In this document: piece after piece, positions 1 to 13,346 of the stretch
How the letters are laid out: each line of letters starts with the position of its first letter
Position numbering within the stretch: position 1 is the first letter of the stretch
Source: Chloroflexota bacterium
GTDB lineage: Bacteria; Chloroflexota; Limnocylindria; Limnocylindrales; CSP1-4
Reading direction: 5' to 3'
DNA: 13,346 bases
NCBI GenBank assembly: GCA_021789355.1
Contig: JAJYJR010000089.1
Span: 1 to 13,346 of the forward strand
Translations under genes and position numbers: made by a program
Notes under the pieces: generated by a model
The model's database searches: none
What the model saw: the letters and a program-made list of their open reading frames with translations, nothing else
Told to the model about the DNA's origin: nothing

Positions 1-279
1 CCCCCGGCGTGCCATCAGGCGCGCCACCCGTTTCCGGCCCACCCTGATCCCCCGCCGCTGCAGGGCCGCGGTGATGCGGGGTGCGCCGTAGGTGCGCCGC
101 GAGGTCCGGTGGATCTCGACGATCGCGTCCCCGAGCCGCTCGTCGGCCAGGGAGCGGGCCGAGGGAACGTGCTGCTGCCAGACGCTGAAGGCGGAGCGGG
201 AGACCTCGAACAGGGCGCACGCCTTGCGGACGTTGCGCGCTGCGACCTTCTCCGCCGCGATGAACGGGTACACGCTCAC
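1..279 (-). CDS. IS3-family transposase OrfB, N-terminal part (partial)
   Basis: This frame starts with GTG at 279 and stays open to the window edge (93 codons). The start overlaps the orfA stop as GTGA, in the frame one base back from orfA. The product begins VSVYPFIAAEKVAARNVRKA and continues through a segment with R-R-T-Y-G-A-P-R-I and RKRVARLMARRG. That is the HTH_21-type region that precedes the DDE (rve) integrase core in IS3 OrfB proteins; the catalytic core itself lies outside the window. No A6G-type slippery heptamer is visible at the junction, so GTGA translational coupling or a weaker slip at the GTTTTC run could produce OrfB or an OrfAB fusion. Confidence 0.85.
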   Translation of the reverse strand, partial: MSVYPFIAAEKVAARNVRKACALFEVSRSAFSVWQQHVPSARSLADERLGDAIVEIHRTSRRTYGAPRITAALQRRGIRVGRKRVARLMARRG

Positions 280-590
280 CGGGTCTCTCTGGCGAAGAAA
301 ACCGTCGCCCGCTTCAAGATGTCGCGCTCCTCGCGCAGCACCCGCACCTCCTTGCGCAGGCGGGCGAGCTCCTCGCGCTCGGCGCTCGTCAGCCCGTCCC
401 GGCGCCCGGCGTCGACCTCGGCCTGGCTGACCCAGCGGCGCACCGCGGTCTCGCTCAGGTCGAGGTCACGGGCGACCGCCGCGATCGACTTGCCGCTCGC
501 GCGACAGAGCTCGACCACCTCCCCCTTGTATTCGTCAGTGAACGCGCGGCGCGCTCGTCGCTGTTGTTCCATGGCGTCCATGATGGACAT
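276..590 (-). CDS. IS3-family transposase OrfA (helix-turn-helix)
   Basis: The 104-aa product has the form of an IS3 OrfA. An N-terminal HTH_Tnp_1 domain (about residues 14-60: RRAFTDEYKGEVVEL, then SIAAVARDLDLSETAVRRWV) is followed by a Leu/Glu/Arg heptad region (about residues 68-96: EREELARLRKEVRVLREERD) and ends in the typical ILKRATVFFARE tail. In this family OrfA binds the terminal repeats and joins OrfB, by fusion or in trans, to make active transposase. The length is normal and no damage is visible. The ATG at 590 was used; an ATG three codons in (MDAMEQQ) is an equally good start. Confidence 0.9.
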   Translation of the reverse strand: MSIMDAMEQQRRARRAFTDEYKGEVVELCRASGKSIAAVARDLDLSETAVRRWVSQAEVDAGRRDGLTSAEREELARLRKEVRVLREERDILKRATVFFARETR

Positions 591-662: not shown

Positions 663-678
663 GTAGGGTTATCCCCAC
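663..678 (+). promoter_or_regulatory. Palindromic operator copy 1, abutting the -35 box
   Basis: GTAGGGTTATCCCCAC is a 16-bp near-palindrome of the form GTAGGG-N4-CCCCAC. It is nearly identical to two sites at 3997-4012 and 4020-4035. It ends one base before the TTGCGT -35 box of the promoter for the secreted protein at 745, a position typical of an activator touching sigma region 4. I infer it is the binding site of the LuxR-type regulator encoded at 1800-2444. Recurrence and placement are visible; the identity of the binding protein is not. Confidence 0.6.
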
Positions 679-707
679 TTGCGTCTCCTCATCCCTCGGC
701 CTAGCGT
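679..707 (+). promoter_or_regulatory. Promoter of the secreted protein gene at 745
   Basis: TTGCGT (679-684) and TAGCGT (702-707) are separated by 17 bp, consistent with a housekeeping-sigma promoter. The same operator/-35/-10 arrangement recurs at 4020-4065 with TTGGCA, 18 bp and TAGCGT, which supports the call. Transcription would begin near 714 and leave a leader of about 30 nt. Confidence 0.55.
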
Positions 708-744
708 CCGTCACGAGCCGCGGGTATGGGGAAGGGAGAGCCCA

Positions 745-1239
745 TTGAAACGTGTTTTCGCGATCTGTGCGGTCATGTTGCTGACCATTGCGATCTCACC
801 CGGATCGGCAGTCGCCAAGAGCGCCAGCCCGGATCCGGCAGCCGTCGTCAAGGTTACCCTGACAGCGGTCTCCGGTGGGCCGTCAGGAACGGTTTCTCCG
901 ATGGCCGCCGGCGAGTGGAATGCCGGCTGCCAATACTCCGCGTTCAACGCACTTGGCCAGGTCATCTACTCCTACACTACCTGGCAGCAATTCGCGACGG
1001 ACGGTTCGCGAATCTACTACTACCCTGCGCCTACGTACAGCGCGAGTGCCTACTGGGGCTGGGCCCTGACCTCGGCACCGACGCCCACCCACTGGTGGGT
1101 GACGCAGCCGACAGCTCTGGCCGCGCGCGGGAGCTACACGTTCACACAGTACGTTGGCGGGCAACCGTTCCAGTCCGCGTCGGGCTGGGTTCAGGTGACG
1201 GTGTACGCAAGTGGCACCTGGGGTTGCCTCAACGGCTGA
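745..1239 (+). CDS. Secreted Tyr/Trp-rich protein of unknown function
   Basis: The start is placed at TTG 745 because AGGGAG (733-738) lies 6 nt upstream and the product then opens with a clean signal peptide (KRVFAICAVMLLTIAISPGSAVAKS). Earlier in-frame starts would put the promoter inside the gene. The 164-aa product would be cleaved near residues 24-25 (AVA/K). The mature part is rich in Tyr, Trp, Ser and Thr (for example SRIYYYPAP and YWGWALTS) and contains two cysteines, C62 and C161, placed so that a disulfide could close the domain. No known catalytic motif is visible; a beta-rich extracellular fold is inferred. The gene sits directly downstream of operator copy 1, so it probably belongs to the same regulon as the crystallin-like gene at 4116. 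Confidence 0.8.
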   Translation: MKRVFAICAVMLLTIAISPGSAVAKSASPDPAAVVKVTLTAVSGGPSGTVSPMAAGEWNAGCQYSAFNALGQVIYSYTTWQQFATDGSRIYYYPAPTYSASAYWGWALTSAPTPTHWWVTQPTALAARGSYTFTQYVGGQPFQSASGWVQVTVYASGTWGCLNG

Positions 1240-1268
1240 TTCGCACCTGGGCTGAGTCGCTTGGGGGG

Positions 1269-1298
1269 TTGCGGTAGGCGGCTCGACTCTGCTAACAC
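1269..1298 (+). promoter_or_regulatory. Possible promoter of the SHOCT-domain gene
   Basis: TTGCGG (1269-1274) and TAACAC (1293-1298) are spaced by 18 bp in the intergenic stretch 1240-1382. The operator palindrome is absent here. The match is modest and unsupported by a second copy. A GAGTCG/CGACTC inverted pair (1254-1259 and 1284-1289) overlaps it but has a long loop and is not a convincing terminator. Confidence 0.3.
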
Positions 1299-1382
1299 AA
1301 TGACGTACCCGCGGCTGAGCACGTTGAGGGTCGAGCGATCACGATCCTCAGACTTCCCTGGGCGAACTGGGAGCCCCGAAGT

Positions 1383-1643
1383 ATGGACTACCTGCTAGCT
1401 TGGATCGTCGCAGCCAGCGTCTTCTTCGGCATCGTCTTTGCCTTGTTCTTCGCCATCGTCCGTGTGACTCGGGCTCTGATGGGAACCCGCCGACGACTCG
1501 AAGAGGAGCTCGGCGACGAAGTGCTTCGCCTCCGACTCGCCCGCGGCCAGATCACTCAGGAGGAGTACCTCCAGGCGAGACGGGCACTCGGTCTCGCAGA
1601 TCGACGACCCTATCGGGACGCGACCCTGCCCCCTCCCCGCTGA
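1383..1643 (+). CDS. Small membrane protein with SHOCT domain
   Basis: The 86-aa product has one hydrophobic helix (about residues 5-27, LAWIVAASVFFGIVFALFF), then a charged stretch, then a C-terminal SHOCT motif (about residues 46-70) with the hallmark pattern R-G-Q-I-T-Q-E-E-Y-L-Q-A-R-R-A-L. SHOCT is a short helical module found at the C-termini of many small bacterial membrane proteins and is thought to mediate oligomerisation; its cellular role is usually unknown. GGGAG at 1369-1373 lies 9 nt before the ATG. The gene lies between a secreted protein gene and the convergent two-component operon, so a link to envelope signalling is plausible but inferred only from position. Confidence 0.85.
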   Translation: MDYLLAWIVAASVFFGIVFALFFAIVRVTRALMGTRRRLEEELGDEVLRLRLARGQITQEEYLQARRALGLADRRPYRDATLPPPR

Positions 1644-1750
1644 CATAACTCTGGGGAGTCCACGGTCGGCGCCGATAGTGCTGCGGCAGCCCGAGGCGAT
1701 GCCTAGACCGGGTCCCCGCGGGGTGAGATTGGAGGTTGTGAAGCGCCGGA

Positions 1751-1768
1751 GGGGTGCGCGGGCGCCCC
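1751..1768. terminator. Possible hairpin between convergent genes
   Basis: GGGGTGC, a four-base loop and GCGCCCC form a 7-bp stem with one G-T pair, inside the gap (1644-1799) between the plus-strand SHOCT gene and the end of the minus-strand regulator gene. There is no T-run, so intrinsic termination is doubtful. A CCCCGCGGGG palindrome at 1714-1723 lies nearby. Nothing else was seen in this gap. Confidence 0.3.
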
Positions 1769-1799
1769 CTCGCGCTCGGGGTCTCGACAGATCCGGTGT

Positions 1800-2444
1800 T
1801 CATCGCGCCTCGGCCCGCCGGCTGTCTGTCGGCAACGCCAGCCAGCCCTCGCGCTCCGCGCGTACGGCGAGCTCGGTGCGGCTCGCGACGCCAAACCGTT
1901 CGAACAGGCGCCCCAGATGCGCCTCGATCCCCTTGCGCGTGATGCTGAGGGTCGCCGCGATCTCATCGTTCGTGCGGCCCTGAAGGAGCAGCCCTACGAG
2001 GCGCCGGTCGCGCGGGCTCAGCGGCGTCCAGCCGGAACGCTGCACCGCCACCAGGAGCTCGGCCGGGAACGCAAAGCCCCCTACCGCGACCTGGCGGATC
2101 GCGTCGAGGATCTCCGCGGTGGGCGCGGTCTTCAGGACGAAGCCACTCGCGCCGTGGCGCAGCGCCGCGTCGACGTACTGCGGCATGCCGAAGCTCGACA
2201 CGACGATGAAGGCGGGCGGCGCGGGGAGCTCGCGCGCCTCGAGCAGCAGGTCGAACCCCGACCCGTCCGCCAGGCGCAGGTCGAGCAGGACCACGTCGGG
2301 CCGCTCGCGGGCCAGCAGGTCCCGCGCCGCGGCGAGCGAGCCGGCCACGACGACGACCTCCAGATCCGGCTCCCTGGCCAGCACGCCCTCCAGCCCGCTG
2401 GCGACGACCGGGTGGTCGTCCACGATCGCAATGCGCACGCTCAT
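1800..2444 (-). CDS. Response regulator, LuxR/NarL family
   Basis: The 214-aa product has an N-terminal receiver domain (about residues 4-118) with the acidic pair D9-D10, phospho-acceptor D55 (VVLLDLRLADGSG), S83/S84 at the switch Ser/Thr position and conserved K105 (GFVLKTA). A GerE/LuxR-type DNA-binding domain follows (about residues 140-200: LSPRDRRLVGLLLQGRTNDE and its HTH). The domain order and length are standard for the NarL/DesR/LiaR group. The ATG at 2444 is preceded by GGAG 8 nt upstream; a GTG at 2453 is a weaker alternative. The gene starts 16 nt after the kinase stop, so both are co-transcribed as a cognate pair. The palindromes at 663, 3997 and 4020 are its most likely DNA targets; that link is inference. 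Confidence 0.92.
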   Translation of the reverse strand: MSVRIAIVDDHPVVASGLEGVLAREPDLEVVVVAGSLAAARDLLARERPDVVLLDLRLADGSGFDLLLEARELPAPPAFIVVSSFGMPQYVDAALRHGASGFVLKTAPTAEILDAIRQVAVGGFAFPAELLVAVQRSGWTPLSPRDRRLVGLLLQGRTNDEIAATLSITRKGIEAHLGRLFERFGVASRTELAVRAEREGWLALPTDSRRAEAR

Positions 2445-2460
2445 GCGGTCCACTCCACGC

Positions 2461-3969
2461 TCACGCCCGCCACTCCAGTTCGACCGCCACTCCCCCCTCC
2501 GTGGCGTTCTCGAACCGCAGGCTCGCATTGATCGAGCGAGCGCGCTGGCGCATGGACCCGGTGCCCATGTGACCCTCGCGGCCGGCACGTTCCAGCGCGC
2601 CCTGGGGCATCCCGAGTCCATCGTCGACTACGGAGAGCACGACGTCGTCCCGCGACACGACGCCGCGCACGGCGACACGGCCCCCGCCCGAATGCCGCAC
2701 GGCATTCGACAGCGCTTCCTGCACGATGCGGAACGCGGCGACCTCGACCTCTGGCGGCGGTCGCAGGTCTTTCGTCGGGCCCGCCTCGTTCTGCACGTCG
2801 GCGTCGACCCGGAAGCCCGGCGCCTGCGCGCCAACCTGCGCGGCCAGGAACTCGATCGCGGGGGCGAGACCGAGATCATCGAGCACCGGCGAGCGCAGGT
2901 CGGTCGCCACCCCGCGCAGGTGGTCCGCCACGCCCCTCAGCGCGGAGATCTCCGACTGCGCGTCCGGTACCGTGTCGAGCCGGCGGATCACGCCCGCGAT
3001 CTCCTGGAGTGGCACGTCGTGGAGGTCGCGCGCGAGGCGACCGCGCTCGGCCTCCGCTGCCTCCACCGTAAGCCGGTCGCGCAGGTCGGCGATCAACAGG
3101 CGGTCGAGCGTACCCCCGACCGCCCGGCGCAGGCGCGGGTACACCAGCACACCCGCAACCAGCACGGCGGCGGTGAGAAGAGGAGGCGCGTCCGCGATCA
3201 GCTGCAGGGCGGCCACCAGCGCGAGCGCCAGGGCCAGGGCGAGAACGTCCAGGGCACGCAGGCCACCGACGGAACGGATCCAGTTTCTCGCGGCGTCGAC
3301 GTCGACCTGCAGGGCAAGCACACCCGCGCAACCGGCGAGAACGGCCGCGACGCGGAGGTCGTCGATCGAGTCGAAGAACGCCGGCGCCGCGAGCCAGGCG
3401 AAGACCCAGGCAGCGGCCAGGAGCAGGGTGAGGGCGACGATCACCGACCGCGCCCGGACGTTCCGAAGGCCCCAGCGGGCGCTCCAGGTCGCGGGTGCCA
3501 CCATCGCCAGCAGGCGGGCAGGTATCTCGATCGCGGGCGGCGAGGCGATCGTCAGGGGCACCGAAGCCGCGACGACTCCGAACGTCGCCAGCGCCGCGGC
3601 GCGCCGGGGTCGCCCGGGGAACGCGGCGATCGCAAGCGCTGCCAGCGCGAGCGCGATCAGGGCCGCAGGTAGCGCGTCCCGCAGGTGAGCGGTGGCCCCG
3701 CCGAGTGTCGCGCCGATCCGCACACCGTCGGCCTGCGTCACCATCCCTCCCCCGCCAGGGCTGTCGCTCGACGACAGCGCAACGACGGTCTGGCCGGCGC
3801 GAACCCCCTCCTGCCAGGCGAACGATCCTGGATCGACGTGTGACACCTGTGCCCCTGGAAGCCCTGAGACCACGCCGAGCTCGGCCGTGCCCAAGAGCGC
3901 TGTGGCCACGGACAGTGCCGCCATGGTGAATCCCGCGATGACAAAGCCGAGCACAGCGATCGGCGACAT
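2461..3969 (-). CDS. Membrane sensor histidine kinase, HisKA_3 (NarL/DesK/LiaS type)
   Basis: The 502-aa product begins with a hydrophobic helix (about residues 4-28). An extracytoplasmic segment follows that includes a PDZ-like stretch (about residues 42-66, with D-P-G-S-F-A-W-Q-E-G-V-R-A-G-Q). A run of predicted membrane helices spans about residues 100-275. The cytoplasmic part carries a HisKA_3 dimerisation motif, ERGRLARDLHDVPLQEIAG, with phospho-acceptor H317 and the HDxxxQ signature. A GHKL ATPase domain follows, with the N box EALSNAVRHS (N422), the G1 box DDGLGMP (D450) and a glycine-rich GHMGTGSM segment. All catalytic elements are present. The ATG at 3969 was chosen because the hydrophobic N-terminus begins there and upstream codons would run through the operator at 3997-4012; its Shine-Dalgarno is weak. 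The PDZ-like region could sense misfolded or unusual envelope proteins, but the ligand is unknown. Confidence 0.88.
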   Translation of the reverse strand: MSPIAVLGFVIAGFTMAALSVATALLGTAELGVVSGLPGAQVSHVDPGSFAWQEGVRAGQTVVALSSSDSPGGGGMVTQADGVRIGATLGGATAHLRDALPAALIALALAALAIAAFPGRPRRAAALATFGVVAASVPLTIASPPAIEIPARLLAMVAPATWSARWGLRNVRARSVIVALTLLLAAAWVFAWLAAPAFFDSIDDLRVAAVLAGCAGVLALQVDVDAARNWIRSVGGLRALDVLALALALALVAALQLIADAPPLLTAAVLVAGVLVYPRLRRAVGGTLDRLLIADLRDRLTVEAAEAERGRLARDLHDVPLQEIAGVIRRLDTVPDAQSEISALRGVADHLRGVATDLRSPVLDDLGLAPAIEFLAAQVGAQAPGFRVDADVQNEAGPTKDLRPPPEVEVAAFRIVQEALSNAVRHSGGGRVAVRGVVSRDDVVLSVVDDGLGMPQGALERAGREGHMGTGSMRQRARSINASLRFENATEGGVAVELEWRA

Positions 3970-3996
3970 GCTGCGCCATTCGCGCCCCCGGCGGAA

Positions 3997-4012
3997 GTAG
4001 GGATATCCCCAC
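3997..4012. promoter_or_regulatory. Palindromic operator copy 2, upstream of the kinase gene
   Basis: GTAGGGATATCCCCAC has a perfect 10-bp core (GGGATATCCC, 4000-4009) and is palindromic over 16 bp except for one pair. It lies 27 bp before the kinase start and 23 bp, about two helical turns, centre to centre from copy 3 at 4020-4035. Two dimers could therefore bind the same helix face in this divergent promoter region, giving autoregulation of the kinase/regulator operon. The occupant is inferred. Confidence 0.6.
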
Positions 4013-4019
4013 ACCCGGC

Positions 4020-4035
4020 GTAGGGTTCTACCCAC
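4020..4035. promoter_or_regulatory. Palindromic operator copy 3, abutting the -35 box of the crystallin-like gene
   Basis: GTAGGGTTCTACCCAC agrees with copies 1 and 2 except in the central bases and the following position. Its GGGT-TCT-ACCC core (4023-4033) is an inverted repeat. It ends immediately before TTGGCA at 4036, exactly as copy 1 ends before TTGCGT, so the spacing between operator and -35 is conserved between two unlinked promoters. Confidence 0.6.
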
Positions 4036-4065
4036 TTGGCACCACCCCTCCGCCCCCGCTAGCGT
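4036..4065 (+). promoter_or_regulatory. Promoter of the beta/gamma-crystallin-like gene
   Basis: TTGGCA (4036-4041) and TAGCGT (4060-4065) are separated by 18 bp. The -10 box and the flanking CTAGCGTC are the same as in the promoter at 679-707. The leader to the ATG at 4116 would be about 45 nt. Confidence 0.55.
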
Positions 4066-4814: not shown

Positions 4815-5618
4815 ATGAAGCGATTGGTGTACGGCGCTGAACGCGGACTGCTCCCCGCTTTGATGGCCCTCATACTCGCCCTCTCCTTGATGGCCCCGAG
4901 CGCAGCTGCCAGCAATGCTGCGTTCGTACCCTCTGGAGCGTTCAGTTCAGCGGAGATCAGCCAACTCATTGCCACCATGTCCCCCGAGGAACGCGGGACG
5001 ATCGGGGCCAAATGGCAAAGCGGACAGTACGCCCCGGTGGCCTACGAGCGCATCTTCATGCCATTGGATTCGGCCGGCCGACCGGTGACGTCATCGGCGA
5101 CAGTGCTGCCACTGACTGGCAGCACCAGCGGCCACGGACTCTACATCTCAGTGTCCGCCACATATGATTACCAGGCCCCGGCGTATCGCTGGGATCTTGA
5201 CGGGTTCTGGCAGTGGACTGGTGGCACCGCAGACTCATGCAATCAGGCGCCTGACCATGTGTCAATCTCCTGGGGCGGCCAACTGGGACTCGTCAACGAC
5301 TACGCGTACGGCTACTACTCGGATAATTCAGCGATTCCCACCTATCGCGGCACCGCCAATTCGAACGGCGGGGTCGACTACTACTTCAACGAGTGGAAGC
5401 CAGGGTCGCCGCTGTGCACAGGCGCGAACTGGGGAAACCTCCTGGCGACAATCTCCGAGACACGGTTGCAGAACTTCAATTCTGGCGTGGATTTCCAGTA
5501 CACACACACGTACGGTACTGTCGATGTCGGCATCAGTTTCAGTTTCCCTCCTGCCATCACTGTGAGCACGGGGAGTTCCTACTGGCCACTGGCGGCGTCG
5601 ACATCAGTGACCTTCTGA
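4815..5618 (+). CDS. Secreted protein of unknown function
   Basis: The ATG at 4815 was chosen because GAGGTCGGG (4802-4810) serves as its Shine-Dalgarno, whereas the ATG at 4800 has none. The 267-aa product has a signal peptide (about residues 11-33, LLPALMALILALSLMAPSAA) and a short helical segment (about residues 43-75, SSAEISQLIATMSPEERGT). The long beta-rich remainder is full of Tyr, Trp, Asn, Gly and Ser (for example NDYAYGYYSDN and GGVDYYFNEW). C142 and C201 may pair. No known enzyme motif was recognised. It resembles surface-exposed or released actinobacterial/chloroflexotal proteins only in general composition. It follows the crystallin-like gene on the same strand after 162 bp with no clear terminator between them, so read-through from the 4036 promoter is possible. 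Confidence 0.8.
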   Translation: MKRLVYGAERGLLPALMALILALSLMAPSAAASNAAFVPSGAFSSAEISQLIATMSPEERGTIGAKWQSGQYAPVAYERIFMPLDSAGRPVTSSATVLPLTGSTSGHGLYISVSATYDYQAPAYRWDLDGFWQWTGGTADSCNQAPDHVSISWGGQLGLVNDYAYGYYSDNSAIPTYRGTANSNGGVDYYFNEWKPGSPLCTGANWGNLLATISETRLQNFNSGVDFQYTHTYGTVDVGISFSFPPAITVSTGSSYWPLAASTSVTF

Positions 5619-8592: not shown

Positions 8593-9495
8593 ATGGAACC
8601 AGGATCTCCTCGGGAGCCGTTTCGCCTGTACGACCCGCCTGCGCCGCGCGAGCTCACCAGGGAGACATGGCTGCGGCAGGTCGCACGCGACGCCGCGACG
8701 GGCGACTGGATACTGGCCGCGATTGACGCGGAGCGCGCCAACGACCCGCGACGGGCCCGGGCGGCCTGGACCCAAGTGCTCGCGCAGGGGCCGGCGACGG
8801 TGGGCTGGCCCGCCCTCGCGGTCGCCTGCGCGCGGCTGGGTCGGCGCTCGGCGGCGAAGGCCGCCTGGCTCCGCGAGGCGCGCCTGCGCGCGAGCCGGGA
8901 CGAGTGGCTCGATGCCGCCGTGGCCGAGACGATGGCCGGCGAGCGGGCGGCCTGGACCCGGCTCGCGCAGGCTGCGACACGGGGCGGTGACCACGCCCTG
9001 GCGCACACCGCCTGGGAGCAGGCCGGCGAGCGGGTACAGGCGGCCGCAGCGGCCGCGCGGGAGGCGGCCCTGTCAGGCAAGGGGCACCGCAGCGAACGGC
9101 ACGTGGACTCAGCCTGGGCGTTCGACGCCGCCGACTGGTGGGAGGCGGCCGGGCTGCCCGGACGCGCCGAGGCGGCGCGCACCCGCGCGGAGCGGTCCGA
9201 GGCTCCCTTTGGCGCGGCAGGTGGTGGGTCCCCGATCGAGAGCTCGACCGGCTGGGCGGTGACCACACAGCGGCGGCGACTGGCCGCGGCCGCCCCGCGC
9301 GCGATGCGCCAGCCGCTCGCCGCCGCCGCGACGCCCGCCGTCTCCGGCACCCTGGCCCGTCGGCGCGCGCCGCAATCCTGGTCCCGCGGCGCACCGGACG
9401 CGACCGACGGAGCCCGCGACCGATCAGAGGTGCGCACCGCCCTCGAGCACGGGTCCCGGATCGGGCAGGCCGAGGTCGAGCAGGGCGCGGCGTAG
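8593..9495 (+). CDS. Ala/Arg/Trp-rich helical-repeat (TPR/Sel1-like) protein
   Basis: The 300-aa product has a GGGTGAGGTGG ribosome-binding tract just upstream of its ATG. Residues about 25-205 read as repeated helix pairs with recurring A-A/T-W signatures: ARAAWTQVLAQG, AKAAWLREARLRAS, AAWTRLAQAATRGGDHALAH, TAWEQAGERVQ and AADWWEAAGLPGRAEAARTR. This fits a tetratricopeptide-like scaffold for protein-protein contacts. From about residue 205 the sequence becomes low-complexity and Arg/Ala/Ser-rich. The last 72 bp overlap, on the opposite strand, the 3' end of the FtsH-like protease gene. Because the tail looks disordered and is partly shaped by the overlap, the functional part is probably the helical region. 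A scaffold or adaptor for the neighbouring protease is a guess from position. Confidence 0.68.
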   Translation: MEPGSPREPFRLYDPPAPRELTRETWLRQVARDAATGDWILAAIDAERANDPRRARAAWTQVLAQGPATVGWPALAVACARLGRRSAAKAAWLREARLRASRDEWLDAAVAETMAGERAAWTRLAQAATRGGDHALAHTAWEQAGERVQAAAAAAREAALSGKGHRSERHVDSAWAFDAADWWEAAGLPGRAEAARTRAERSEAPFGAAGGGSPIESSTGWAVTTQRRRLAAAAPRAMRQPLAAAATPAVSGTLARRRAPQSWSRGAPDATDGARDRSEVRTALEHGSRIGQAEVEQGAA

Positions 9496-10980
9496 CTCCT
9501 GGCCGCCCAACTGGCCGTGCTCGGCCCCGTCGATCCGGGCGGCCAGGGCGCGCAACTCGGGCTCGTGCGCGGCCAGCAGGTCCTCCACCCGCGCCCGCTG
9601 TATCGTCAGGGTGGCCGCGGCCGCCGCGGCGGCGAGGTCCCGCAGGGACGCCGGCTGCTGGGGGTCGAAGGCGGCGCGGGAGATCGGCGGGAAGCCCGGA
9701 TCGGTGCCCGCGTCGATCCGGGCGAGGGCCAGGGCGGTCGCCCGGGTCAGGTCGTCGGCGCTGCCCAGGCTCACTTCCGCTGGCGCGAAGAGGAGCCGCT
9801 CGGCCGCTTGGCCGGCCAGCCCCACCGCGATGAGATCGAGCACCTGGCCGTCGGACTGGCCGCTGGAGCGGGGACGATCCTCCTCCTCGAGCTCGGTGAA
9901 CGCGCCCCCCGTTGTGGGATCGAGGGCGATCTGGCCGAGCGGCAGCCCGAGGAGGGCGGCGGCCAGGGCATGGCCGGCCTCATGCCCCGCGGCGATGCGC
10001 CGTTCGCGCGCGTCGAGGGGCCGGTGGCGGTCCGAAATCTGTCCGCCGCGCTGGATGGCTTCGACGGTGTGCGACCAGTCGGCCCCCACCGGGAGCGGCC
10101 GCTCGCTGCCCGCCGAACCCGTGGTCCGCGAGTCTGCGGGCGCCGCGTCGGCATCGGCGAGGGTCAGGGCGAGAGCGTCATCGAGGATCTGGCGCACCTC
10201 CGCGCCGCTGGTGCGCGTGCCCATCATCTCGGCCGCCTTCGCCCAGTCCATCGGGCCCGCGAAGCGTCGGCCGGCCGCGAAGTGGCGGAACAGCTGTTCG
10301 CGCTCGGTGCGGGTGGGGTAGGTCGTCTCGATGTGCCAGCCCATCCGCCCGCTGCGGGTGATGGCATGGTCGAGCTCGGCGGGCGTCGTATTGCTGGTAA
10401 ATAGCCAGAGAATGGTCGGGGTGGCACGCAAGCCGTCGAGCACGGCCAGGAGTGCGTAGAGCGCCTGGCGTGACGCGGGCGTATGGGCCCAATGGCCCCG
10501 CGCCATGGCGATGGCGTCCACCTCGTCGACGAACACGACGGCCATCCCGGCGTCCGCCGCTCGGGCGGCGAAGTGGTCGCGCAGGGCGAAGAGGCGCGCC
10601 GCGGTGAGATCCCCGCCGCTCAACTCGTAGAAGGGCACCGCACGCTCGGTGCCCTCGGCCAGCGCCGAGGCCACCACGCGCGCGAGGGTGGTCTTGCCGG
10701 TGCCGGCCGGACCGTAGAAGAGGATCGCCCGGGGGAGTTCGCCGCCCGCCTCCCGGATCAGCTCGGGATGGCGCAGCCGCGCGATCAAGGACTGGACTTC
10801 CCGCTTGGCCGCCGTCAAGCCCACCACGTCGTCGAGCGTGGCCCCCGACACGGTGATCCGTCGTTCGGCCAGCCAGGTGGCCATCCCCTGATCGTGGGTG
10901 CGCGGGCGGGCCGCAGGAACGCTCGTGAGGGTGGCGATGGGGGAGGGGCCGGCGGTGGCCGCAGTCGAGGAGCGGGTCAT
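9424..10980 (-). CDS. Soluble FtsH-like AAA+ ATPase/M41 zinc metalloprotease
   Basis: The 518-aa product has an AAA+ module (about residues 50-275). Walker A is GPAGTGKTT (residues 90-98, K96). Walker B is VVFVDEVDAI (D152, E153). Sensor 1 is TSN (N197). The second region of homology is TRSGRM, with R209 and R212 as candidate arginine fingers. An M41 peptidase module follows (about residues 325-505) with zinc motif H333-E-A-G-H337 (AGHEAGHALAA) and third ligand candidate D410 in GSADDLTRAT, plus LAGQAAERLLF. All catalytic elements appear intact. Classical FtsH has one or two N-terminal membrane helices; this protein instead has a short polar Ala/Ser/Pro tail, so it should be cytosolic. The ATG at 10980 was used; a TTG at 11016 would add twelve residues. 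Substrates are unknown. Confidence 0.88.
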   Translation of the reverse strand: MTRSSTAATAGPSPIATLTSVPAARPRTHDQGMATWLAERRITVSGATLDDVVGLTAAKREVQSLIARLRHPELIREAGGELPRAILFYGPAGTGKTTLARVVASALAEGTERAVPFYELSGGDLTAARLFALRDHFAARAADAGMAVVFVDEVDAIAMARGHWAHTPASRQALYALLAVLDGLRATPTILWLFTSNTTPAELDHAITRSGRMGWHIETTYPTRTEREQLFRHFAAGRRFAGPMDWAKAAEMMGTRTSGAEVRQILDDALALTLADADAAPADSRTTGSAGSERPLPVGADWSHTVEAIQRGGQISDRHRPLDARERRIAAGHEAGHALAAALLGLPLGQIALDPTTGGAFTELEEEDRPRSSGQSDGQVLDLIAVGLAGQAAERLLFAPAEVSLGSADDLTRATALALARIDAGTDPGFPPISRAAFDPQQPASLRDLAAAAAAATLTIQRARVEDLLAAHEPELRALAARIDGAEHGQLGGQELRRALLDLGLPDPGPVLEGGAHL

Positions 10981-11050
10981 GCCTTGTACGCAACCACCAC
11001 TGGGCGGGACGCGCAATGGATTCGCCGGGTGAATGGGACTATCGGGCTAC

Positions 11051-11662: not shown

Positions 11663-13346
11663 ATGAAGGTCGCGCGCTCGCAGGAGCCGCTCTATAAGCC
11701 GCGTCTCGGACGCCCGAGACGGGTCATCGAGAACCGTCCCGAGCGATGCCCGGACGGTCACGTCGGCGGTGTCACGCTGTGGGGCACCCGGGAATGGACG
11801 ACCGCACCCTTCCGCCGCCAGCGCTTCCGCTGCGTGCCACCGGACGGCTCCACGCCCCACACGTTCTCGCTGGATCGGCGTCCCGCTGCCGAGCGTCATC
11901 CCGCCGGCGAGGCCTGCGTCGTCTGCGATCTGCGCCCGGGTGTCGCGGAGGGCCCGCTGTCACCGGCGGACTACTTCCACACCGCGGTCGAGATCGCGCA
12001 CCTGCTCCAGCTCGTCGCGCAGGGCATGTCGCTCCGGCGTGCGAGCCACACGATCCGCCTTGAGGCCACCGCTTCTGGGAGGACGCCCACGGCATGCGCC
12101 ACGCGAGCCGCCAGCACGTCCTCGCCGCCCGCTACCTCGACCTCTTCGGGACCGCCATCGACGCGGCGCTCGCCCCCACGCGCTGCCCGCGCATCCTCAT
12201 CCTCGACTCGAAGCCGCTCAACCTGCGGGCCTACGGCGCCGAGCGGTTCGACCCCTCATGGAACCCCGACGAGCGCGGCGGTGCCGTGTTCGTGGCGGTC
12301 GGCGGCGACGATCCCGGGCATCGGTTTATGCCCTGGCGCATCGGCCTCGCGCCCGACGGGACCACGAAGTCCTGGATCGACTTCCTCGACGAGATCGATC
12401 CCGACGGACCCGGACCCGACTGGGTGGTGGCCGACGGCGCCAAGGCCATCGCCAACGCGGTCGCCGCGCGCTGGCCCAACGCGACGTTCTACTCGTGCGA
12501 GTTCCACCTGGGCCGCGCGCTGCGGGCCGCAGCCAGCGCCGACGGCATCTGGACCGGCGATGCCGCCCACCGGCAGCTCTTCGAGCGGGCCTTCTGGACC
12601 AACCACGACTGGGACGCCCTCGGGACGTTCGCGCGAACGCGCCACGCGGCGACGCTCGAGGGCTGGTGGCGCGCGAACGAGGCCCTCGTGCGCCAGCAGA
12701 TCGCCGAGCATCGCGCCCACCAGGGCTACCCGCGCAGCACCGCAGCCGCGGAGCGCATCCTCGACTGGATCGACACGCGCTTCGGGCGCCGGCGCCGCTA
12801 CAGCCTGCGGAACGCGCGCCGCCTCCAGCTCGTGCTCGCCCTGGTGCGCGCCCACCACGCCGGGCAGGCCGACCTCGCCACCTTCGCCGCGATCGTCAAG
12901 CGCGAGCTCCGTGGGCTGCCGCCCTCGTTCCGCTTCGCCTGGACGGGGCTCCATGATCCGCACACGAAGGCATGCTCGATCGCGGAGCTCATCCTCGACG
13001 CCCATACCCGGGCCACCCAGGGGACGGCGACCTACATGGCCGCGGCCAAGGCGCGCTCGGTCATCGCCAACGTGGCCGCCCAGAACGACGCGCTCGCGGC
13101 GCTCGGGCATCCGCCCCTCGTGGCCACCGTGGCACCGGGCCGGAAGACGGCCTCGGTCAAGGTCAGCGGGCTCATGCTCGCGCGCGACTTCCCGCTCGTC
13201 GCACGCGACTGGGACGCCGGGGCCAACGACAAGCCACTCGCCACTGTCACGGCGGGCTCGAGCTACGAGGCTCACTGGACCTGCCATCGCTGCGGCCACC
13301 GGTGGGTCGCCCCCGTGGTCCAGCGGACCTGCCGCCAGACGCGCTG
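11663..13346 (+). pseudogene. MULE/DDE-type transposase with C-terminal zinc ribbon, frameshifted and partial
   Basis: The first frame from ATG 11663 encodes a Cys/His-containing N-terminus (ERCPDGHVGGV, then RFRCVPPDG and CVVCD) and a probable HTH (LVAQGMSLRRASHTIRLEA). Near 12066-12068 the protein-like sequence moves to the frame one base back and continues HRFWEDAHGM. Restoring one C in the C-run would give an uninterrupted LEAHRFWED. The second part has LILDSKPLNLRAYG (D codon at 12205), WVVADGAKAIANAV (D codon at 12433) and FYSCEFHLGRAL, in the order seen in MULE/Mutator-type DDE transposases. It ends with a domain, VARDWDAGANDKPLATVTAG then HWTCHRCGHRWVAPVVQRT, that fits the treble-clef zinc-ribbon family DUF4379. 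The product runs off the window. The original frame also stays open, so ribosomes would make a long nonsense tail. A sequencing indel is possible. Confidence 0.7.

Follow-up and report, generated by a model that had tools for sequence, protein, structure and literature searches.

Among described two-component systems, ComP-ComA comes close to the one treated here. In the available sections of the published accounts, ComP consists of one transmembrane helix, an extracellular PDZ domain, several further transmembrane helices and then the HisKA/HATPase part (PMC9620489, PMC3353171, PMC6411480). The ComA site is given as two inverted TTGCGG hexamers separated by 4 nt, 16 bp in total, and most of the known ComA target promoters contain a second adjacent site, a direct repeat with a 5-nt spacer (PMC4797271). 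We analyzed a stretch of 13,346 nucleotides from a Chloroflexota bacterium (assembly GCA_021789355.1, contig JAJYJR010000089.1; the whole stretch is called the window), in which a 16-bp dyad occurs as a pair (dyads A and B) between a histidine kinase/response regulator operon and the gene of a secreted-looking crystallin-like protein, and as a single copy (dyad C) before the gene of another secreted-looking protein at 745. As far as those sections describe ComP-ComA, the system appears to resemble it in outline, by the layout of the kinase, a NarL-family regulator, a 16-bp inverted repeat of the 6-4-6 form and two adjacent sites. It is not filed as a member. The hexamer here is GTAGGG and not TTGCGG, and the second site, at a distance of 23 bp, is again inverted and not a direct repeat with a 5-nt spacer. 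The window kinase has fewer transmembrane helices than ComP, and the gene usually found next to it encodes a secreted crystallin-like protein. Some distant loci contain GCGGG-N4-CCCGC-like forms, in which TTGCGG hexamers would be 6 apart. Neither comQ nor comX was recognised among the window proteins scanned, a set that did not include every reading frame.

Some DevR/DosR, DesR, VraR and NarL-type regulators act from dyads near the -35 region. The known systems of these regulators differ from the present one in the kinase sensor (PDZ-like here), the operator sequence and the target gene. By profile, the same regulators are among the best-scoring solved relatives of the window regulator (DevR 1.4e-35, DesR 1.1e-34, NarL 1.2e-34 and VraR 4.1e-34). 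The crystallin-like protein comes closest to microbial beta/gamma-crystallins and peptidase inhibitor family I36: its predicted fold matches beta/gamma-crystallin domains, and Crystall/Inhibitor_I36 matches occur in its homologues; it differs from them by an N-terminal cysteine stretch and by its tie to a two-component operon. The open-access literature gave nothing on Limnocylindria together with a response regulator and, among the matches listed, neither a gamma-crystallin beside a divergently transcribed histidine kinase/response regulator nor a description of this system under Chloroflexi NarL binding motifs or regulons.

We are fairly confident that the dyad is the operator of the neighbouring regulator, which would activate the crystallin-like gene and the gene at 745. 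The paired dyad is probably the switch by which the sensor system controls the crystallin-like protein, which appears to be the best-supported target. The sequence-only reading had proposed an operator of this regulator at a few secreted-protein genes, and the comparison of loci given below lends good support to such an assignment.

The same reading had described three 16-mers agreeing at 13 of 16 positions, with no further full match in the window. The three copies, their coordinates and their agreement (GTAGGG.T.T.CCCAC) were all confirmed (Table 1), and no fourth exact match to GTAGGG-N5-CCCAC was present on either strand of the window. Only 0.003 exact matches were expected per window (300 order-2 Markov simulations). 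With a weight matrix built from 15 regions, among them the region of dyads A and B and not that of dyad C, three sites scoring at least 13 were observed versus 0.04 per simulated window, and two sites with a correctly spaced -10 box versus 0.0 (200 simulations). When two mismatches were allowed the pattern was not unusual, with nine found versus 5.0 expected, and 19 of 200 shuffles reached nine. Dyad A (GTAGGG-ATAT-CCCCAC) is a 16-bp inverted repeat with 6-bp arms and a 4-bp spacer. Its dyad symmetry is good, as is that of dyad C (12/16), and that of dyad B is poor (8/16).

A search for the kinase covered all 177 genomes of the class to which genome G068 belongs, and 34 of them contained a match at 1e-30. 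Fourteen loci (13 genomes) in which the kinase match started by residue 16 were used together with the window as the model set; loci with a later-starting match, L108 among them, were left out of the motif model. A crystallin-like homologue was the divergent neighbour of the kinase in 12 of the 13 homologous loci with that side covered. The exception is L126, which has no such homologue there; in L107 the locus starts at a contig end. Unsupervised expectation-maximization, which placed a single 16-bp palindrome in each of the 15 intergenic regions (up to 150 bp), yielded the consensus.taGGGatatCCCta., that is, a 16-bp dyad TAGGG-N4-CCCTA. The log-likelihood was 62.7 (60 starts), and 20 shuffled sets (25 starts) gave 27.8 +/- 2.7 with a maximum of 33.2. 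A second site, for which the one-site model made no provision, was located 22-24 bp from the best one in 15/15 regions; this partner was the second-best match in 14 loci and the third-best in G074. Dyads A and B are read as one paired operator with a 23-bp period. The three sites are real and beyond chance, and with two of them making up a pair they do not count as three separate operators. When 2113 flank tiles of 19 loci (training loci included) were ranked, the top 13 site pairs were all upstream of kinases of this family, and the next two were downstream of a regulator gene. Extra strong copies of the dyad (scores 13.7-16.9) were also seen at L132:11679 and 11735, L140:9097 and 9132, L136:5665 and L130:2127, about 45-330 nt past the 3' end of the regulator gene and without exact -10 spacing.

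The G+C content of the window (70%) and the IS3-like transposase frame just left of dyad C might suggest that the repeats arose by chance, belong to an RNA hairpin or terminator, or are remnants of the insertion sequence (IS) element at the left edge. Such an origin is hardly credible. The chance expectation was 0.003 to 0.04, no Rfam match was found, a fold of 3985-4060 was no better than shuffles (z -0.54, 59/200 as good), dyads A and B are far from the IS element, and the conservation of the dyad in 15 regions already contradicts it.

The position of the sites relative to putative promoters was compared. The site nearest the gene stops about 23 nt short of a TASCST -10 box and lies next to the -35 region. 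Dyads B and C share this geometry, which fits control of the crystallin-like gene and of the gene at 745: each abuts a -35-like, TTG-type hexamer (TTGGCA and TTGCGT, respectively), and TAGCGT follows 23 or 24 nt after the 16-mer. The end of the site pair was drawn by hand in 14 loci (G072 left out) and TA[GC]C[GC] was sought within 80 nt downstream. Nine boxes were found, all of them 20-22 nt past the pair end; four loci had none and one was cut by a contig end. A further test was provided by 16 other kinase loci (L109-L124) from the same kinase search, which were not used for the matrix. In 11 of the 16 a site scoring at least 4 was followed by TACC[GT]T at exactly 23 nt on the kinase strand, just upstream of the kinase, several of the test loci being close kin, so that they represent fewer than 16 independent cases. 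One of the 11 could also be read at 22 nt. Within a range of 0-59 nt, the 16 loci contained only two further sense matches (46 and 53 nt) and no antisense match. The simulated expectation for site-N23-TACC[GT]T was a mean of 0.05 loci and a maximum of 1 (60 simulated sets). With this geometry in 11/16 loci, the dyad belongs to a kinase/NarL-type-regulator family of this class, apparently Limnocylindria. Organism-labelled homologues of the regulator (P0092, P0097 and P0104) are assigned to Candidatus Limnocylindria or Limnocylindrales, and the window therefore most likely derives from the same part of the Chloroflexota. The element had been tied to the regulator before, and a tie to its family was borne out by the position of the dyad, which in homologous loci separates the kinase operon from the crystallin-like gene and which is also found upstream of paralogous kinases, where it appears to stand at the promoter of the kinase itself. 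By eye, an ATG or GTG start lies 6-8 nt after the -10 box in L110, L112-L114, L116-L121 and L124, which suggests leaderless kinase messages in these 11 paralogous loci.

The same sites and the same regulator could also act by repression, with occupancy of the -35 region blocking the polymerase and phosphorylation, or its loss, relieving the block. In the window the -35-like hexamer follows the proximal site directly, and with the kinase start only 27 nt away from dyad A, a bound regulator could also obstruct the promoter of the kinase. The distance from site to -10 box, however, is near-constant in many promoters, which fits a position-dependent activator, and a repressor would tolerate variable positions. 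Repression is thus rather unlikely in our judgement, and activation is preferred.

The site and its pairing were computed directly, as were its conservation, its distance to a -10-like box and its link with the kinase family; to these we would add a scheme in which binding by the window regulator, activation and the signal are what we infer. The PDZ-sensor kinase, stimulated outside the membrane, would phosphorylate the NarL-type regulator, whose dimers would bind the 16-bp dyad (6-bp arms, 4-bp spacer, core GGG-N4-CCC). Dyads A and B, whose centres are 23 bp or about two helical turns apart, would both be filled by regulator dimers. The proximal dimer beside the -35 region, with its centre near -44 by our estimate, would recruit RNA polymerase and turn on the crystallin-like protein, with help from the second dimer two turns upstream. 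The single dyad C may do likewise for the secreted protein at 745, and in related kinases of the class the site would be placed for activation of the promoter that drives the kinase itself. For a class represented here mainly by metagenome assemblies, such a scheme would give a concrete regulatory circuit. Its parts would be a PDZ kinase resembling ComP, a NarL-type regulator, two operator sites paired at a nearly constant distance from the promoter, and, as the recurrent target, a secreted protein of beta/gamma-crystallin fold. The scheme would also give a promoter rule for the targets of the family: dyad, 23 nt, TASCST. The crystallin link and the paired architecture are the interesting parts of the system.

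Table 1. Coordinates of the dyads, promoter-like stretches and genes in the window
Feature	Position	Strand	Description
Dyad C GTAGGGTTATCCCCAC	663..678	+	operator-like, single copy; weight-matrix score 18.8
Promoter-like stretch before the gene at 745	679..707	+	TTGCGT 679-684, 17 nt, TAGCGT 702-707
Secreted-looking protein, 164 aa	745..1239	+	signal-peptide-like N-terminus by eye
NarL/FixJ-type response regulator, 214 aa	1800..2444	-	receiver and GerE/LuxR helix-turn-helix (Pfam)
Membrane histidine kinase, 502 aa from ATG at 3969	2461..3969	-	first transmembrane helix, PDZ-like domain, further transmembrane helices, HisKA_3, HATPase_c
Dyad A GTAGGGATATCCCCAC	3997..4012	.	putative operator dyad; near the kinase, far from the crystallin-like gene; 14/16 dyad
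Dyad B GTAGGGTTCTACCCAC	4020..4035	+	putative operator dyad; near the crystallin-like gene, 23 bp from dyad A
Promoter-like stretch before the crystallin-like gene	4036..4065	+	TTGGCA 4036-4041, 18 nt, TAGCGT 4060-4065
Secreted-looking beta/gamma-crystallin-like protein, 178 aa	4116..4652	+	Pfam Crystall below cut-off, predicted fold

The class-wide occurrence of the site was analyzed with the pattern GGGWWWWCCC-N26-TASCGT, which gave 12 matches in 12 of the 177 class genomes and none in the reversed control. Six of the 12 were directly upstream of a frame encoding a kinase of this family, by profile in L177, L178, L182, L184 and L186, and in L187 by a frame that continues through kinase L109. 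L184 is the same place as L124, so the class scan and the 16-locus test overlap there. In L180 a kinase match is located downstream on the same strand, in a different frame from the one starting after the site. The site preceded an ABC-transporter ATPase (ABC_tran 3e-27 to 5e-26) in L179, L181 and L183 (genomes G041, G045 and G056), a VanY-type carboxypeptidase (1.4e-29) in L176 (G016) and a frame with a weak DUF3558 match in L185. The ABC-transporter and VanY-type neighbours hint at cell-envelope functions.

A different transcription factor, encoded elsewhere, might bind the dyads and control these genes. Site and regulator are linked by co-location only, and the recognition helices, compared with the site ends by eye in 40 rows, gave a mixed pattern. 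The site nevertheless follows the kinase/regulator family across genomes, paralogues included, and elsewhere in 18 module-bearing or related genomes it was no commoner than controls. It was also rare with its geometry beside the NarL-type regulators of other bacteria: 78 loci, mostly from other bacteria (831 kb), contained seven sites scoring at least 13, none with the -10 geometry, and at lower thresholds the geometry accompanied 1/130 sites scoring at least 9 and 5/1057 scoring at least 5, compared with 11/16 class kinase loci in 54 kb. A factor encoded elsewhere is therefore quite improbable, and the neighbouring regulator is retained as the candidate.

Several observations weigh against the proposed operator and its targets. 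The homologous loci are related, so their conservation is partly non-independent, and the second site scores low in several of them (1.5 to 3.0 in G072, G074 and G098). A recognisable -10 box is lacking in 4/13 divergent-side promoters, and 5/16 further kinase loci lack the site in the stretch covered. On the kinase side, no -10 box at the right distance was found in the window; the scripted search found it in 2/15 close loci, and in a third, G096, TACAAG was seen by eye at a similar distance. Autoregulation of the window's own operon, which had been proposed earlier, is thus not supported; paralogous kinases do have a box at that distance. In G068, the genome with the closest regulator (90% over residues 40-207, truncated by a contig end), neither a kinase nor a crystallin match was found. 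The pattern GGG-N-W-NN-CCC-N26-TAGCST gave five matches in the 18 genomes, one of them the operator of G002 itself, versus 11 in the control; this gives no sign of a large regulon with the exact geometry in these genomes, and the earlier notion of a defined regulon is not supported. When the strict site and -10 rule was applied to crystallin rows, 10/26 beside a kinase and 2/6 without one satisfied it (four rows were too short), and distant relatives seem to use a diverged site.

The literal string GTAGGG-N5-CCCAC was rejected as a class motif; it occurred once in G068, not in G028 and once in G001, versus 10, 5 and 6 times in the reversed control. TAGGG-N5-CCCAC-TTG gave one match each in 2/177 class genomes, and in both the spacer consisted of G and C only. 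The class as a whole thus does not share the exact string. It was also absent from all 80 loci among the matches listed in a scan of contigs with the regulator alignment, of which only L001 and L002 were near (48%).

Pfam matched Crystall to the crystallin-like protein below cut-off (3.1e-4; 21.2 bits versus a gathering score of 25). Its structural model (pLDDT 82.8) matched 2bv2 in Foldseek (E 1.9e-5; TM-score 0.82 by target and 0.40 by query), and a beta/gamma-crystallin fold is predicted. The motifs NDKISS and NDTFSS we take to fit the calcium-binding motif of microbial beta/gamma-crystallins. The family comprised 24 proteins at E<=1e-3, that of the window included, among 484 word-sharing candidates from a set of 5.8 billion. 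Among the homologues, Crystall was found in 15/23 and Inhibitor_I36 in 14/23 at E<=0.1, and at the N-terminus they carry an additional stretch in which cysteines are conserved. A further 19 crystallin-like genes, read as orphans at first, were inspected with wider flanks; 10 adjoin a kinase of this family and several of the other nine are near contig ends. Their upstream regions are mostly without a strict site, and several contain a diverged one far upstream on the kinase side, with palindromes such as TTGCGTGGTTTTCCTCAA or GCGGGTTTTCCCGC.

It is a speculative and unlikely possibility that what the PDZ sensor reads outside the cell, as signal or damper, is the secreted crystallin-like protein itself or a fragment of that protein. 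If true, the kinase, operator pair and secreted protein would form a quorum- or surface-sensing unit inherited across a little-studied class. The C-termini of the crystallin-like proteins vary (PG, PW, RT, RS and others) and gave no support for their being read by the PDZ-like domain.

A strong site (18.8, from outside the training set) precedes the gene at 745 with the -10 spacing and makes this gene a plausible candidate for a second target. Its earlier inclusion among the targets holds as far as promoter geometry goes, and it is tempered by there being one locus and two marginal matches (6e-4 and 9e-4 in the 177 class genomes); the product had no Pfam or NCBIfam match. Dyad C has no partner 20-29 bp upstream, and only weak dyads (best score 3.7) at 30-32 bp, perhaps because of the IS3-like element there. 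Pieces of an IS3-family transposase occupy 1-590 (-), an OrfA-like one at 276-590 and an OrfB-like one cut by the window edge; they end about 70 bp left of dyad C and may have displaced an upstream partner site.

The window kinase is predicted to have a ComP-like layout of a transmembrane helix, a PDZ-like domain, further transmembrane helices and a kinase core. In its structural model (pLDDT 91), a transmembrane-like helix at 3-26 is followed by a beta-rich part at 33-88, several helices and the core, and the PDZ-like domain (about residues 29-98) lies between the first and the next transmembrane helices. Alone, this kinase had a weak PDZ_6 match (E 0.028, below cut-off), and PDZ_6 was present at E<=0.1 in 35 of the 77 members of the kinase alignment. 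A profile of such segments from 19 of the 77 members matched DegQ (9.1e-7), Protease Do (5e-6), a myxobacterial hemagglutinin (1.1e-5) and Scribble (1.3e-5); further PDZ proteins and another two lectins followed at lower rank. A Foldseek search with the complete model of the kinase gave kinase cores and related proteins and no PDZ among the 50 matches listed. In the model a single helix precedes the PDZ-like domain and about seven follow it, and hydropathy indicated seven segments in all; the approximately ten of ComP (one before, nine after) were not found. HisKA_3 was just under cut-off in the window kinase (23.6 versus 24 bits), and 77/77 alignment members matched both HisKA_3 and HATPase_c at E<=0.1, as in a ComP-like output part. 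A database copy of the kinase starts 22 aa earlier, across dyad A. The regulator matched Response_reg (5.2e-20) and GerE (1.8e-12), the receiver and helix-turn-helix of the NarL/FixJ type.

Downstream of the crystallin-like gene, 4815-5618 (+) encodes a second secreted-looking protein without a family match, before which no listed site scored at least 12 or had the -10 geometry. An FtsH-like AAA protein is encoded at 9424-11016 (-), with an FtsH_fam match of 1.9e-42 (below cut-off) that starts at residue 44 of the tested frame and an HEAGH motif by eye. A frame with weak IS256/IS1249 transposase matches is located at 12094-13346 (+) and runs off the window.

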